Source of the DNA: a virus
Strand: one strand, 5' to 3'
Length of the DNA: 23,191 nucleotides
Virus record (IMG/VR): IMGVR_UViG_3300041402_000583
Coordinates: 1-23,191 of that record
Below, piece by piece: positions 5,501 to 22,756 of the stretch; within the stretch, counting starts at the first letter, position 1, and every line of letters begins with the position of its first letter. A model generated the notes under the pieces. It ran no database searches and was not told where the DNA came from. It saw nothing but the letters and a program-made list of their open reading frames with translations. A program made the translations under genes and the position numbers.

Positions 5501-6779
5501 TATAAACTTGGTTCGATACATCTGCATTTGAGTTGATAAAAGAGATGAAGGAACCTGCTGTATCTTGAACCGTGGTGTATGTTGCAGTCTCAGTATCGTC
5601 AAACGATATTGAACCCGCTCCGGTCGGATCCCCTATATTATCGTAAGCAGTAGCTCCGCCGCTATCGGCGTCCTGCTTCATATAAAACCCGTCCGCAGCG
5701 GAATCGTAAGCCACAACGTAATCATCATTTACCGGCAGGGTCGCTAAATCTACCAAATATCTAATAGCATCGTCATCATACCAAGCAAATGCGCCATCGA
5801 GTAATCCAGTCACGGTATTGTCATAAACCAGCTCCCCAGGGGCATCGGGGGATATATCGGCATCTGCATAAGTTGCTCCGCTGGTAATAGTCGGTGTGGT
5901 CAGGTTCCAACTTGAGACGGCCACGCTATCATCCAAGGTCGGCGAAGCCCAGGTATTTCCAAGCTCTCCGCCCGGAGAGGCCCCACCGTCAAAATCAAGG
6001 TCATCATCGGTTAAGGTCAGGGCGTCCCCAGCGGTAAGGTTCGTATCGTTTGAAATGTCAAGACTTGAAATTGAAGTGCCTGTGTGGGCGTGACCGTCAT
6101 CGACAATCGTTACATTACCACTGGTGGCATTGAAGTCGGTATTATCAAAACTGGCCGCCCCTTTGGTCGAGCCGTCATCATCGGCATCGGCTATGGCAAA
6201 GGTTATATCGGCATCGCCACCTACAATCACATCGTCAAGGTTTGCCCCGGCATTAACAGTCAGTGGAGAGGTCGTTACAATATCGACAAGAGAGATAACA
6301 ACGAAATCTATATCATTCGTGCCGTCCTGGTAGGTAACTGTAATATCAGTTTCAGTCCCACCTAACATACCGCCAACGATATCTTCAATTTCCTCCTCGG
6401 TGTTTGCGTAGAGGTTGGTTGAGCCCTCAGATAGAGAGTCCGTGTCGGTCAAGGCAAGCATCTGTACTATGGTATGCCACTCGAAATCCCCGGTCGTGCT
6501 TTCAAAGGTAAAGATGTCCTCATCGGTTGCGGAATCTACTGCTTTTAGGTGTGATTCCTCTACGAAATTGGCCCAGGCAAAGAACTCAAGGCCATCTGGT
6601 TCGGAATTAACCCTGATTCCCTTGCCCTCCTGGCTCACGTAAGTGTCCGGGGTGTCCCAGAGCTGCCAGAAGTAAAACCTGCCGGACGGTCTGACAACCT
6701 GACCAAAAACCAAGTCGGAAAGATAACCTGCACCGATAATAAGAAACATCACTATCAAGATTATGATTGGCTTTTTCAT
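2550..6779 (-). CDS. Giant fibre-like structural protein (~1.4 kaa) with N-terminal anchor and internal duplication
   Basis: An N-terminal signal peptide/anchor (KKPIIILIVMFLIIGAGYL, possible cut at VFGQ) is followed by ~1380 acidic, Asp/Thr/Ala/Gly-rich residues. N-terminal region: WDTPDTYVSQEGKGIRV, then collagen/fibre-type phrases (LTVNAGANLDD, KGAASFDNTDFN). A domain VYDN...WYDDD...VAYDSAADGFYMK...AYDNIGDP occurs twice (see repeats). A middle region with Trp-rich strands lies at 630-780. The C-terminal third has YGYYTSN, SQYGVYVDD, DYGIAIAG and YALWVSS repeats followed by ITFGSGGDTNLYRSG, the pattern of trimeric tail-fibre shafts. I set the start at ATG 6779, which overlaps the radical SAM stop as ATGA; an in-frame GTG at 6788 gives three more residues. 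A virion fibre or surface protein is likely; receptor and partners are unknown. Confidence 0.75.
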   Translation of the reverse strand: MKKPIIILIVMFLIIGAGYLSDLVFGQVVRPSGRFYFWQLWDTPDTYVSQEGKGIRVNSEPDGLEFFAWANFVEESHLKAVDSATDEDIFTFESTTGDFEWHTIVQMLALTDTDSLSEGSTNLYANTEEEIEDIVGGMLGGTETDITVTYQDGTNDIDFVVISLVDIVTTSPLTVNAGANLDDVIVGGDADITFAIADADDDGSTKGAASFDNTDFNATSGNVTIVDDGHAHTGTSISSLDISNDTNLTAGDALTLTDDDLDFDGGASPGGELGNTWASPTLDDSVAVSSWNLTTPTITSGATYADADISPDAPGELVYDNTVTGLLDGAFAWYDDDAIRYLVDLATLPVNDDYVVAYDSAADGFYMKQDADSGGATAYDNIGDPTGAGSISFDDTETATYTTVQDTAGSFISFINSNADVSNQVYMLDLDYSADTTQDNADFIRLQDAGSTLVVFEEEGKITMTPSGVDDAMIISMTPSTALTAADAAWYGIKIDGDALDPGDVDNTVIGIDVDLSGVDLTNIPYVEALELIMPTGGVALHIEEGKIKQQFTSGSDAGAEYTAIDMFMDASSQAATSETHAIDVAVVGGDPAGLVVGLGTHTYVAPVHQHIGVFSIPDQAGADSEAGFFDDSGTDYIDGVDGIEQFTADDDAIWISAATVFTELEVIMGTPATRSITPTFWYWKDLGVDAWTQFFPADDTDGFQQSGTIRWETTAVPDWLSADVVNISAGDAGEAAAGYWIAIIRTVNADPGTPTPTTVKTGAITEYSWDETGAIDVLSMEADTITEGGNAIPNATDHLGFFGGTTSAELLAEISNETGSGLLVFATAPVFTTSIQLTGADADPAAAAGTIVYDNTLAEMSGGVIRWYDNDSVRMLVDLETDVVDGDDDKVVAYDSAADGFYMKADADTGGATAYDDIGDPDAASTIDFDDDERVTWTVAEDSAASFFTINDSDAALAANTYLLHLLYSVDDDEANADYFKCEDAGGVVFSIQQDGDVTTTGDLDFTNRTSIIQTGTIERIDLDYTLQPAGGLAGTTIIRGMDVKAIWDSDQDGETQDGYINAGRFESKTLDIGATGNIHALRSVTAISYHYGTGTVAEQIGVLSVVNNDDTDSEDGDITAAYNFWASAGTDKGTGTIATRYGYYTSNTSGGGNLTSQYGVYVDDMTGATNDYGIAIAGADTYALWVSSAAQNTDAANGITFGSGGDTNLYRSGVNTLKTDDTFVLAGITATGNADFGGADLELPQASPAVPDVDGEIEIDFTDGKVIIQHGSAHAELGASTDVVVGTLIQSWSATIYEPDGVNDVMTVKAINSIEYPHGVVITAIYLQISEDSNYTLTFQNFDDFDTINGGDPTIDAVAYTANTTGEVIDTTPTYATIAAGQIIMISIPATDVDWIHFEIYFYEPAA
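3774..4235 (-). repeat. Second copy of internal ~150-residue domain in the fibre-like protein
   Basis: Codes for residues ~852-1005 (numbered from GTG 6788): GTIVYDNT, RWYDNDSVRMLVDLET, VVAYDSAADGFYMKADAD, GGATAYDDIGDP, FDDDERVTWT, then ANADYFKCEDAG and FSIQQDGDV. It aligns along its whole length with the copy at 5382-5837. The proteins are near-identical in the core VAYDSAADGFYMK but the DNA differs at many third positions, so this is an old duplication kept by selection. Confidence 0.85.
5382..5837 (-). repeat. First copy of internal ~150-residue domain in the fibre-like protein
   Basis: Codes for residues ~318-469: GELVYDNT, AWYDDDAIRYLVDLAT, VVAYDSAADGFYMKQDAD, GGATAYDNIGDP, FDDTETATYT, then DNADFIRLQDAG and VFEEEGKITMT. 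It matches the copy at 3774-4235 in motif order and spacing. About 380 residues of non-repeated sequence separate the two copies. Confidence 0.85.
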
Positions 6780-7567
6780 ATCCACCACGTAAAATATCTA
6801 AATATTTTGCGAAACCAAATAGCCTTAAACCCGAAAGTCAGAATAGAAAAAACTGACGAATCCCACAAACCAAACTCCATCGTCAAATTGGGCATATTGG
6901 GGTTTCTTCTTTTCCGGTTTCCTATACACTTCTCACACAGTTCATTCATCCAGGGATTTCTGCTCATAAGTATCTCATAAAATGGCTCTTCAACACTGAC
7001 TCCAACATCTGTTTCTCTTCCCCCGGTGTTACCGCATGGATACGCTTTATCACCAGAAAATGTTAGATGGGTACATCCACAGTCTGCTGGTGATGAATTT
7101 TTGGTTGTTTTGCAAAGTGACCAAGGTAAATGCACTACACATTGAATCTTGACCCTTTTCCTACCAAGTTGTTTCCTCAGATGTAGAATATCAAGTCTGT
7201 TAATACCGCCATAATGTGAAATTGCTATTATATCAGCATCGCCGTAATCTTTAGCTTCTCTATCAATACCATTTGTGATAACACGGACATGCTTTACACC
7301 TTTTTCTTTTGCATATTTTATGGCCCAAGTCAAATGCGACCACAATGTAGGTTCGCCACCTGAAAAAATCATCCAATCTATATTTACATTTTGCTCATTA
7401 AGTCTTTCAATTATCCTAATAAATTGTTCACGGGTCATCGCATACTTGCGTTGCTCCTTTGACAGACTACTGAGATAGCATCGCGGACAACGAAGATTGC
7501 ACGTCTTAGTAGTTAAGATGAGCACATTTCGATAACACTTAGCCAATTTCGTTTGATACTTGGGCAC
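6776..7567 (-). CDS. Radical SAM enzyme with twitch/SPASM-like C-terminal cysteines
   Basis: 263 residues. CNLRCPRC (Cys23, Cys27, Cys30) is the CX3CX2C motif that binds the radical-SAM 4Fe-4S cluster, and FSGGEPTLW (68-76) is the SAM-binding GGEP motif. VRVITNG near 94-100 fits the next barrel strand. After the barrel come C163, C165, C178 and the pair C211-X2-C214, which could hold an auxiliary cluster as in twitch/SPASM proteins. The last ~25 residues are aromatic and hydrophobic, a possible membrane-associating tail. It starts with GTG after GGAG (7-nt gap), overlaps the small membrane gene upstream, and overlaps the fibre-like gene by ATGA. Its substrate cannot be read from sequence. Peptide or protein modification is a reasonable inference; a QueE-like role is less likely given the auxiliary cysteines. 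Confidence 0.85.
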   Translation of the reverse strand: MPKYQTKLAKCYRNVLILTTKTCNLRCPRCYLSSLSKEQRKYAMTREQFIRIIERLNEQNVNIDWMIFSGGEPTLWSHLTWAIKYAKEKGVKHVRVITNGIDREAKDYGDADIIAISHYGGINRLDILHLRKQLGRKRVKIQCVVHLPWSLCKTTKNSSPADCGCTHLTFSGDKAYPCGNTGGRETDVGVSVEEPFYEILMSRNPWMNELCEKCIGNRKRRNPNMPNLTMEFGLWDSSVFSILTFGFKAIWFRKIFRYFTWWI

Positions 7568-12469: not shown

Positions 12470-13471
12470 TTATGCCGCAGCTACAGCCGTCTCATCGTTC
12501 AAAATGGACGGGCATTTTCTGATGGGCATGTCCCTAAACATCATCATTGGCTTGCCATAAGGATTCTCCGAAGAATACTTGACGTTGGTCTTGTCAACCG
12601 TCAGCCAATCTAAGTGGGTGAAGATTCTGCTATTGACATACATCCAGACGGTTTCCTCGCCCATAAAGTCGTTGCGGGCCTCGATAATCTTCTTGATAAG
12701 GTCGGTGCTGATCGCACTCAATGAAGATTCAATGTTCCTGATTCGCTTGACTGCACGCTGGTCCTCAACAACCAGGCCCAAGTCCCAGGCCAATTCGGTG
12801 ATATAGTCCCACCTCTTTTTGCTGTTCTCGGCGGTCACATAGACCAAACCCATGTCATCGACCTGGATTCCCTTGTGTGGGTCATTTACTGGGTAGGTCC
12901 CAAATACCTTTTCCGGCGACCATTGAATCATCCATATAGAGGTGGTGTCGCTTCCGGTTCCTGCCATATCATAGACACCGAGACTGCCATTTGTCGGATT
13001 AGTTGGGTCGGTTGCATCGGGGGTTGTGTATCTTACGCCAAAGCCATCGAATTTCTCCGGGGTAGCCACGGAGCTTCCGTGTATGATGTGATTGCATACT
13101 CCCTGCCCGAAACCTTCGATGTGCCTGTCCAGAATCGTAAGACGTTTGGTTACTTTTTTGGGCTGTATTCTCAAGGTATCTTTCGGAATCACACTGCGGT
13201 CCTTGAACATACTAATGACTTCGCTGAATGCAGCCCATTGAACTACCGAAGCGTCCCAGCCGTCGCCAACCTTGATAATCTGAGGGGTAGGAATAGAGGT
13301 CTCTCTTACTCCTGAGAAGGAAAGAATCTCGTTTGACGGCACGAAGGGCATGTCCTCCATCATAGGTTTCTTTTCGGTAAGGACTTTACCGAAACGAATA
13401 ATTTGCCCGTTCTTCGAGAGCTTAGACAGAGCCGATAAGTGGTATCGGGTGTCAAATCCTAACTGTGCCAT
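12470..13471 (-). CDS. Major capsid protein (podovirus/BPP-1-like, HK97-fold type)
   Basis: 333 residues. Recognised by the block GFGQGVCNHIIHGS, ATPEKFDGFGVRYTTP, DMAGTGSDTTSIWMIQWSPE, VFGTYPVNDPHKGIQVDDMG and AWDLGLVVEDQRAVKRIRNIE, in the order and spacing I recall for the major capsid proteins of BPP-1-like podoviruses. Upstream of it is the charged N-terminal arm region (GFDTRYHLSALSKLSKNGQ, ETSIPTPQIIKVGDGW). The C-terminus is short and Ala-rich. It assembles the procapsid shell with the scaffold encoded upstream; the cement gene follows. Length is normal. AGGAGA lies 7 nt before the ATG, but the leader RNA can bury this site (see regulatory entries). Confidence 0.9.
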   Translation of the reverse strand: MAQLGFDTRYHLSALSKLSKNGQIIRFGKVLTEKKPMMEDMPFVPSNEILSFSGVRETSIPTPQIIKVGDGWDASVVQWAAFSEVISMFKDRSVIPKDTLRIQPKKVTKRLTILDRHIEGFGQGVCNHIIHGSSVATPEKFDGFGVRYTTPDATDPTNPTNGSLGVYDMAGTGSDTTSIWMIQWSPEKVFGTYPVNDPHKGIQVDDMGLVYVTAENSKKRWDYITELAWDLGLVVEDQRAVKRIRNIESSLSAISTDLIKKIIEARNDFMGEETVWMYVNSRIFTHLDWLTVDKTNVKYSSENPYGKPMMMFRDMPIRKCPSILNDETAVAAA

Positions 13472-13530
13472 AGTGGTTTCTCCTAACTAAAGTAATATTT
13501 TCAGGTTTAGTTTCGGAGAGAAATCCACTA
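13469..13530 (-). promoter_or_regulatory. Shine-Dalgarno-sequestering hairpin of the major capsid gene
   Basis: In the minus-strand RNA, UAGUGG (13530-13525) pairs with CCACUA (13476-13471), and UUUCUC (13523-13518) pairs with GAGAAA (13482-13477). One A (13524) is bulged and a U-G pair (13517/13483) can be added. The paired bases include the whole GGAG and the A of the AUG. Inside the loop AACUAAA (13512-13506) pairs perfectly with UUUAGUU (13491-13485). An alternative hairpin uses the same 5' arm: GGAGA (13545-13541) with UCUCC (13519-13515), and CCAC (13538-13535) with GUGG (13528-13525). It would free the ribosome site. Helices are read directly; the regulatory switch is inferred. Confidence 0.6.
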
Positions 13531-13543
13531 CGGTGTGGGGTCT

Positions 13544-13597
13544 CCTGAACGCTTTTACGCCTGTCTTTGGCGACCGCTCTTTGCGGTAAGCATCAGG
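13544..13597 (-). ncRNA. Three-way-junction RNA in the major capsid leader
   Basis: Minus-strand RNA: outer stem CCUGA (13597-13593) with UCAGG (13548-13544), extended past a small internal loop by GCUU with AAGC. It encloses hairpin ACCGC-AAAGA-GCGGU and hairpin CGCC-AAAGACA-GGCG. Both loops start with AAAGA. The upstream segment GCGUAAGC (13608-13601) can pair with GCUUA(C)CGC (13591-13583) instead, which would break the outer stem and first hairpin. The 3' arm of the outer stem overlaps the anti-sequester arm (13545-13541) by two bases. The layout is like a riboswitch or protein-binding leader. It is not a terminator (no T-tract). I could not match it to a known RNA family. Confidence 0.55.
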
Positions 13598-13621
13598 GCC
13601 GCTTACGCGGGAAATCTGAAT

Positions 13622-13732
13622 TTATTCAACTTCCATACCAGAAGAATTTGGGAAATACTTCTCTTGTAACTCCTTTTCAGACAATTTCTTGTCCTCTTCT
13701 GATATAGTATCTTGTTCTTTTTCTTCGGTCAT
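13622..13732 (-). CDS. 36-residue mini-protein copying the scaffold C-terminal tail
   Basis: A short acidic frame whose ATG overlaps the scaffold stop (ATGA), which implies coupled translation. Its end, DKKLSEKELQEKYFPNSSGM, lines up with the last residues of the scaffold-like protein, DEDLSEEQKQKKYFPKSPGM; the DNA shares the 13-nt AGAAGTATTTCCC. It consists almost wholly of a charged helix plus this tail. In many phages the scaffold C-terminus is the part that binds coat protein, so this peptide could compete with or assist the scaffold. That role is inferred. It is followed by the 150-nt structured leader of the capsid gene. Confidence 0.7.
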   Translation of the reverse strand: MTEEKEQDTISEEDKKLSEKELQEKYFPNSSGMEVE

Positions 13733-21067: not shown

Positions 21068-21454
21068 TTATTTATCTTCCTGTGGCTTGGGTGAGTTATA
21101 AATCCATTGCCTTGCAATTTCGCAAAGCGCAACAAATACAGCATCTTTATCTCTTTCTAACTGCCCAAGGTCAGCATAAGGAACAAGGTCAGGATGAATT
21201 TTATTCTCCTTGCTATATTTTGTCCCATATACCCATCCCATTGAAAAATATGATTGCATCCAACTACCGTGTAATTCTTCTGGCGAATGAGAACGTTGCT
21301 CTCCACATTGTCGCTCAATAACTTTTAGAAATTGCTTTTTGAACGGCTCTTCACGCTCATCCCATACAACAGGAATAATTGGAGCGCCTGCGGCTTTAGC
21401 AGCAATCCGTGCTGAATTATATACAAATTCTGCTCTTTGTTCTGTTATACTCAT
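21068..21454 (-). CDS. RyR-domain protein
   Basis: 128 residues. Residues ~60-115 fit the RyR domain pattern: LHGSWMQSYFSMGWVYGTKY, then KIHPDLVPYADLGQLERDKD and a helix FVALCEIARQW. RyR domains are named for ryanodine receptors and also occur in many phages, where their role is unknown. The N-terminal 55 residues contain PIIPVVWDEREEPFKKQFLK. The protein ends YNSPKPQEDK, a tag shared with the 52-residue protein at 18587-18745. AAGGGATGAAGA precedes the ATG. Confidence 0.75.
   Translation of the reverse strand: MSITEQRAEFVYNSARIAAKAAGAPIIPVVWDEREEPFKKQFLKVIERQCGEQRSHSPEELHGSWMQSYFSMGWVYGTKYSKENKIHPDLVPYADLGQLERDKDAVFVALCEIARQWIYNSPKPQEDK
21082..21098 (-). repeat. 17-nt direct repeat, copy 2 (codes NSPKP)
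   Basis: Exact copy of 18604-18620, at the end of the RyR-domain gene; flanking bases also match in part, including a purine-rich GGA following it. Confidence 0.85.
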
Positions 21455-22207: not shown

Positions 22208-22756
22208 TTATATCGCTTTTGAATAATCGAGACTTCTGAATCGTTCCATCAGATTACCGTGAATTTGGGTTATTCTCGTTTGATGCAAGCCACAAGCTTT
22301 AGCAGTTTCTCTCTTAGTTAATCCTTCAATATACATCAAATTTATAATCAATTTTTCTCTCTTGGATAGCCCCTTCATAAGGTGATTAAATAAATCCCTT
22401 TGCTCCGTACCATTATCGTCAAATTTCGCTGAAATTGTTTCACTAAAAAGAGTGTCTGTATCCAATACGCCGTTCAAAACAGAGAAGTTCTTGAATTTCG
22501 GATAACTATTACCTCTTTTCTCCCTAAACTTTCTATTCCTTTCTTTTGATGTTAAACGCATATAATCAATCATATCGTATTTTATTCGAGCTGATGCGTA
22601 CTTAATCTTGGATTGAGGCAAGAACCTCACATTGCCATAACACCACGCAGAATTTATCAGCTCCCAATAATCAAAATATTTGTTGCAAAAGTGCTTTGCC
22701 CATTTATGAAAAGTTGGCTCAATCTGCTCAAATGTTAATGTATTACTTTTTATCAT
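22208..22756 (-). CDS. Sigma-70-like transcription factor
   Basis: 182 residues. N-terminal part: TFHKWAKHFCNKYFDYWELI and ASARIKYDMIDYMR resemble sigma region 2 (the AR-x-DMIDYMR helix). C-terminal HTH: GLSKREKLIINLMYIEGLTK, then RETAKACGLHQTRITQIHGN fits sigma region 4, the -35-binding helix-turn-helix. The linker (~70-125) is basic then acidic. It would redirect RNA polymerase to phage promoters, perhaps for the virion genes downstream. The start has no Shine-Dalgarno; an AT-rich TATATATATAAAAA lies directly before the ATG. Confidence 0.75.
   Translation of the reverse strand: MIKSNTLTFEQIEPTFHKWAKHFCNKYFDYWELINSAWCYGNVRFLPQSKIKYASARIKYDMIDYMRLTSKERNRKFREKRGNSYPKFKNFSVLNGVLDTDTLFSETISAKFDDNGTEQRDLFNHLMKGLSKREKLIINLMYIEGLTKRETAKACGLHQTRITQIHGNLMERFRSLDYSKAI

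Follow-up and report, generated by a model that had tools for sequence, protein, structure and literature searches.

A 150-nt leader that precedes the major capsid gene of an uncultured phage probably belongs to a new family of translational cis-regulators of capsid genes, one whose ON state, judging from sequence comparison, would be held by two matching internal loops in the leader RNA. It lies at 13621-13472 on the minus strand, between a 36-aa mini-gene and the capsid gene, in the stretch of 23,191 nucleotides of viral DNA analysed here (the window). Its mutually exclusive helices, its place before capsid genes and the match between its loops are established by comparison with homologues or by the sequence itself. 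Among late phage products the capsid protein is typically the most abundant and, to our knowledge, the timing of its output is little known beyond a few model phages. If the proposal is true, a single RNA family common to two capsid families of uncultured phages sets capsid translation. The initial annotation of the window had placed a riboswitch-like leader at this site and overlooked the twin internal loops, its most striking feature.

The leader, its homologues and their gene neighbourhood

The segment 13625-13465 (minus strand) folds to a minimum free energy (MFE) of -53.4 kcal/mol, against -33.8 +/- 3.9 for shuffled sequences (z -5.05; none of 200 shuffles equal), and the expectation set beforehand, that the leader should fold better than shuffled sequence, was thus borne out. 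The three-way junction proposed at 13597-13544 is present, in the MFE together with the sequester helix, which covers GGAG (13483-13480), reaches the AUG and is likewise part of the MFE. The anti-sequester hairpin was found where claimed, at 13545-13515, in the MFE of the window transcript cut before the Shine-Dalgarno (SD) region, and the reported overlap between its arm and the junction stem is real, two bases, GG, at 13545-13544. What proved wrong was the role of GCGUAAGC as an invader of the junction: it is part of a covarying hairpin, P1 (CCGC-GUAA-GCGG, 13610-13599). The MFE of the cut transcript also holds a second hairpin, absent from the initial annotation, in which UCAG (13619-13616) pairs with CUGA (13596-13593), a segment used by both strand A and P2. 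Coordinates of the parts are collected in Table 1.

Table 1. Parts of the leader, the gene that follows it in the window, and the small proteins encoded upstream of leaders in other contigs.
Feature	Position	Strand	Remarks
Whole leader	13472..13621	-	Fold z -5.05; covariance model match 13619-13511, 77 bits, the window being among the model's own sequences
Strand A, UCAG, 5' base of unit 1	13616..13619	-	Pairs with CUGA 13596-13593
Unit 1 internal loop, long strand AUUUC	13611..13615	-	WM = UU at 13613-13612; 5x2 geometry, equal to unit 2
Hairpin P1, CCGC-GUAA-GCGG	13599..13610	-	Changes on both sides in 4/5 modelled pairs
Strand B, CCUGAUGCUU, 5' strand of P2	13588..13597	-	Its CUGA also pairs with strand A
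Hairpin P3 of three-way junction, AAAG in loop	13573..13587	-	Changes on both sides in 6/6 modelled pairs
Hairpin P4 of three-way junction	13558..13572	-	Changes on both sides in 4/4 modelled pairs
Strand C, 3' strand of P2 (AAGCGUUCAGG)	13544..13554	-	P2 cells 97% paired
Strand D, GGAGA, anti-sequester 5' arm	13541..13545	-	Pairs with E; GG common to P2
Hairpin P5 (CCAC...GUGG), within anti-sequester	13525..13538	-	Changes on both sides in 3/4 modelled pairs
Unit 2 internal loop, long strand AUUUC	13520..13524	-	WM = UU at 13522-13521; class and geometry as unit 1
Strand E, UCUCC, anti-SD	13515..13519	-	Pairs with D (proposed ON) or SD (proposed OFF)
Strand F, SD and following bases, GGAGAAACCAC	13473..13483	-	Freeing SD costs 9.8 kcal/mol in the window
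Major capsid protein gene, 333 aa, proposed controlled gene	12470..13471	-	PF20911 GP7, Pfam 1.7e-59; PHROG major head protein
Small ~75-aa protein	L019 1225-1446; L100 3473-3703; L113 4321-4587		Upstream of leader
Small ~75-aa protein	L132 5911-6150; L140 1014-1271; L153 4392-4616		Upstream of leader

Pattern scans and a covariance model (R1) recovered 42 distinct leaders in IMG/VR, 41 of full length and a minimal one. The leader also precedes the capsid gene in relatives found through the capsid protein, at 73, 61 and 58% identity, and folds there just as strongly (z -4.4 to -5.8 for the window and these three homologues); newly found members scored from 88 down to 40 bits with R1 (E about 1e-18 to 4e-7, by a short calibration). 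Some of the conserved sequence was imposed by the search patterns themselves, namely CCUGAUGCU and, for the last scan only, UCAGA; strand B was built into them for all but L001-L003, which were found by protein. The homologues possess the paired arms and compensatory changes whose absence the initial annotation had named as grounds for abandoning the idea. A number of pattern hits were rejected as chance (e.g., L005-L009, L048, L101-L105, L120, L126-L128), as were two strict-pattern hits in GTDB (L050, L051) that resemble chance coding matches.

Each of the 16 virus records searched whole with the covariance model has one copy of the leader per contig, and the next gene is the major capsid gene in 41 of 41 readable cases, the contig of L140 ending before its next gene. 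That gene mostly belongs to the GP7 family and, in L017 and its relatives, to Phage_capsid_2 (PF19821, phrog_3437), with HMM assignments for the window and ten other contigs, the remainder being assigned from N-terminal sequences and protein comparisons. The gene upstream varies among the phages: some have a scaffold-type protein there, others unrelated small proteins. The leader therefore goes with the capsid gene, and the suggestion that it sets capsid output relative to scaffold does not hold generally. Just upstream of the leader, several GP7-type phages encode members of a protein family of about 75 aa without significant Pfam match, and in a Phage_capsid_2-type phage (L111, near 130-470) one homologue lies some 6 kb upstream. 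This family is possibly a regulator or a head protein; as a universal regulator it was rejected, being present in a subset only and having no Pfam family. In L150 (5636-6580, minus strand) this same small gene family has an apparent inserted endonuclease-like segment (HNH-type, judged by eye).

In the window, the mini-gene (13622-13732, minus strand) has an ATGA overlap with the end of a scaffold-like gene. Because it repeats the scaffold C-terminal motif (EKYFPNSSGM versus KKYFPKSPGM), and a similar frame of 61 aa occurs in L001, a coat-binding tail may be supplied twice, by mini-gene and scaffold. Further minus-strand genes of the window encode a protein with a sigma-70 region 4 domain (22208-22756, PF04545), possibly the phage's own late transcription factor, a 128-aa protein with a RyR domain (21068-21454, PF02026, 5e-9), and a Radical SAM protein (6776-7567, PF04055), whose gene follows the capsid genes downstream, amid large genes that look structural.

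As the initial annotation had supposed, we found no known RNA family or paper that describes such a capsid leader. The window had no match in Rfam 15 at the gathering cut-off, relaxed thresholds yielded only matches far below it (to miRNA, snoRNA, lncRNA, plastid and sRNA families), and the Rfam model of T-box sequence and structure likewise gave no match. Two leaders searched by blastn against the 50,697 phage records of INPHARED gave no match, and matches among isolate-phage capsid proteins were all far below 60% identity, those listed being at 24-28%. The leader is absent from distant GP7 loci (L058-L076), whose gaps are short. The literature consulted describes only other phage riboswitches, the comparison with the 2017 survey of 224 motifs being made through Rfam.

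Mutually exclusive helices around the Shine-Dalgarno region

In an alignment of 41 leaders (A10), which was fitted to the model and so leans to the model's structure, making these tests dependent on model and phylogeny, 92.6% of cells are paired and 244 show double changes, where shuffles gave 67.9 +/- 6.6 and slid controls 27-44, with a covariation score of 0.529 against 0.179 for shuffles and at most 0.088 for slid controls. Helices P1, P3, P4 and P5 all covary. The 5' strand of P2 stood in most search patterns and its 3' partner lay outside the pattern of the two most productive scans; this partner of strand B, CAGG or UAGG, keeps the three outer P2 pairs in 41 of 41 leaders. RNAalifold, run on a MAFFT alignment, returned P2 only, because MAFFT had misaligned the variable helices that the model-based alignment resolved.

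The competing helices could be followed in the same leaders. Within the anti-sequester (D:E), 25 leaders have G-C and 14 have A-U at the pair of model columns 130-162. The SD region is paired with E, and hidden, in the MFE of 41 of 41 leaders with a start codon, and freeing it costs a median of 9.3 kcal/mol across leaders at 37 C, a figure that bears on a possible RNA thermometer, in which the SD helix would melt near the growth temperature of the host. In the GP7 group E pairs with its own F at -10.0 kcal/mol, versus -8.0 when partners are permuted (0 of 20000 permutations); the Phage_capsid_2 group gave no significant own-partner preference, its actual partners being slightly worse than permuted ones. 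The covariation sought in both alternative helices is therefore present for the anti-sequester and, for the sequester, in the GP7 group and not in the Phage_capsid_2 group. Three leaders (L117, L129, L150) have the sequester in another register, CUUACU:AGUAAG, over the bases just before GGAG and not those after it. Sequence and fold comparison thus finds that the homologues retain helices which exclude one another and either hide or free the SD, with evidence there for both alternatives; this is the linked layout first claimed for the window.

These strands may be viewed as a chain of competitors, with A:B or B:C at one end, a GG shared by C and D, and D:E or E:F at the other. In the OFF state, B:C (the full P2) and E:F would form and the SD would be hidden; in the ON state, A:B (unit 1, below), the inner pairs only of P2, and D:E (unit 2) would form and the SD would be free. 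For the window RNA cut before F, the MFE is exactly the proposed ON fold, and D:E is the MFE in only 18 of 40 cut transcripts. In the full-length RNA, nearest-neighbour energies place ON a median of 14 kcal/mol above OFF, so that ON would have to be kinetic, partner-held or stabilised by tertiary contacts. The leader would adopt ON first, during transcription, and then decay to OFF unless held.

Twin internal loops and candidate holders of the ON state

Every leader contains the same asymmetric internal loop twice, with AYWM(C) facing C(C), the copies being set in reversed topological order: unit 1 is UCAG - AYWM(C) - P1 - C(C) - CUGA and unit 2 is GGAGRG - C(C) - P5 - AYWM(C) - CUCUCC. The dinucleotide WM is identical between the units in 42 of 42 leaders (UA in 15, AC in 13, UC in 8, AA in 5 and UU in 1), against a shuffle mean of 11.5 and a best value of 25 in 100000 shuffles, and the adjacent Y agrees in just 24 of the 42. 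Loop geometry, obtained by folding each unit alone with the unit 1 pairs enforced and the unit 2 loop held open, is equal in 39 leaders (4x1 in 23, 5x2 in 15, 3x1 in 1), and the exceptions, L014, L017 and L081, appear to be alternative registers. WM changed at least 10 times on the GP7 capsid tree and at least 5 times on the other, in both loops each time, and it differs even at 91-93% identity of the capsid proteins. Twin loops changing in concert are, as far as we know, an unusual evolutionary signature, and the approximately 15 matched double changes amount to ready compensatory mutants that leave the mechanism open to simple reporter tests.

The WM of unit 2 also lies inside the sequester in the OFF fold. 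That the match is a by-product of SD pairing was considered and rejected: several leaders have a WM that is unpaired, or of no help to E:F, and is matched all the same. A third cis partner for WM was sought among the leader and start-codon columns, at fixed offsets and by mutual information, and none was found. Loop 2 exists only when D:E forms, which points to selection of the match in the ON state, and the matched loops would be the reading head of the switch. As the holder of ON we favour, from these comparisons, a common trans-acting partner engaging the twin loops or a docking of the loops together beside the short P2, either of which would keep capsid translation ON. A stricter version, a new class of RNA switch whose active fold needs two loops identical in sequence and geometry (identity, not complementarity) for docking or for a shared partner, is put forward tentatively, as less likely than not.

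A shared partner could be an RNA-binding protein of phage or host, other than the capsid protein, that as a dimer or two-site protein recognises WM in both loops and, by binding there, activates or times capsid translation. We regard this reading as doubtful: two near-identical sites, matched in sequence and geometry, are what such a protein would need, and many GP7-type phages encode a small protein of no known family near the leader, yet the variation of WM at 91-93% capsid identity would require rapid change in protein specificity. The small protein was, moreover, undetected in several leader-bearing contigs examined in full, and a search for single units elsewhere, as a regulon might have, gave no convincing sites in six long phage contigs or the window. 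Docking of the loops within one RNA, by an identity-matched contact and with folding kinetics or temperature working the switch in place of a partner, seems a little more doubtful still. It accords with the separate matching of W and of M across the loops and with the lack of a third column that tracks them; in the ON fold of the window the short P2 stem has a unit on either side, and each flip needs just two RNA changes. A gap of 14 kcal/mol is nevertheless large for a single contact, and we know of no contact that requires A-A, U-U and C-C identity at two adjacent positions.

One leader, L081, has both loops, a sequester and an anti-sequester, and lacks the three-way junction, which is therefore not essential; it also has CCAG and a compensating CUGG in place of the UCAG:CUGA of the other 41. 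This bears on a classical small-molecule riboswitch, with the junction as aptamer and an SD-sequestering platform, as suggested by the overlapping layout of junction, anti-sequester and sequester and by the recurrent AAAG in the P3 loop. We judge such a riboswitch unlikely, in view of the twin loops kept in L081 without a junction, the variable WM in the leader's most characteristic part, and the occurrence of the leader only before capsid genes, with no metabolic gene.

The constant position directly before the capsid gene would also suit an autoregulatory leader, in which the coat protein, or the scaffold, binds its own mRNA. Comparison does not tie the leader to one capsid family with which it covaries: it is common to two, WM is uncoupled from capsid divergence, differing at 91-93% identity, and the upstream gene varies, so that autoregulation appears very unlikely, and the coat protein, named in the initial annotation as a possible signal, is an unlikely reader of the twin loops. 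Least probable of all, in our estimation, is that the matched dinucleotides act in DNA, as direct repeats recognised by a transcription factor or a recombinase, or that they pair with another RNA in trans, for instance a tRNA, for which WMC would read as UAC, UCC, ACC, AAC or UUC. Direct repeats do show identity and not complementarity, but the repeats here sit in base-paired contexts with covarying helices, their loop geometry is matched too, and the base that follows M is, in most leaders, paired with G and so not free for an anticodon.

Comparison with known systems

The leader shares with SD-sequestering translational riboswitches a strand common to anti-sequester and sequester, and a platform that overlaps an upstream domain. 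It differs from them in having no known aptamer at Rfam curated scores, in its paired identical internal loops in place of one pocket, and in the phage capsid gene that lies downstream. In ribosomal-protein leaders of the L20 type a single protein has at least two sites ahead of the gene, and in this the present leader resembles the L20 or L1 type; here, unlike there, the two sites are matched in sequence and geometry and no link to the gene product is seen, the leader preceding two capsid families and its loop sequence being uncoupled from the capsid. Tandem glycine riboswitches and tandem T-box leaders likewise have two related modules per leader, whereas the modules here are single internal loops, in opposite topological order, with an optional three-way junction between them and coupled changes.

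Structured leaders in phage genomes are represented by the glutamine riboswitch of Melnitz (PMC9004378) and the manA and wcaG motifs of cyanophages (PMC2864571), none of which the capsid leader resembles in Rfam. Those riboswitches are tied to tmRNA or metabolic genes, whereas the leader described here precedes the major capsid gene.
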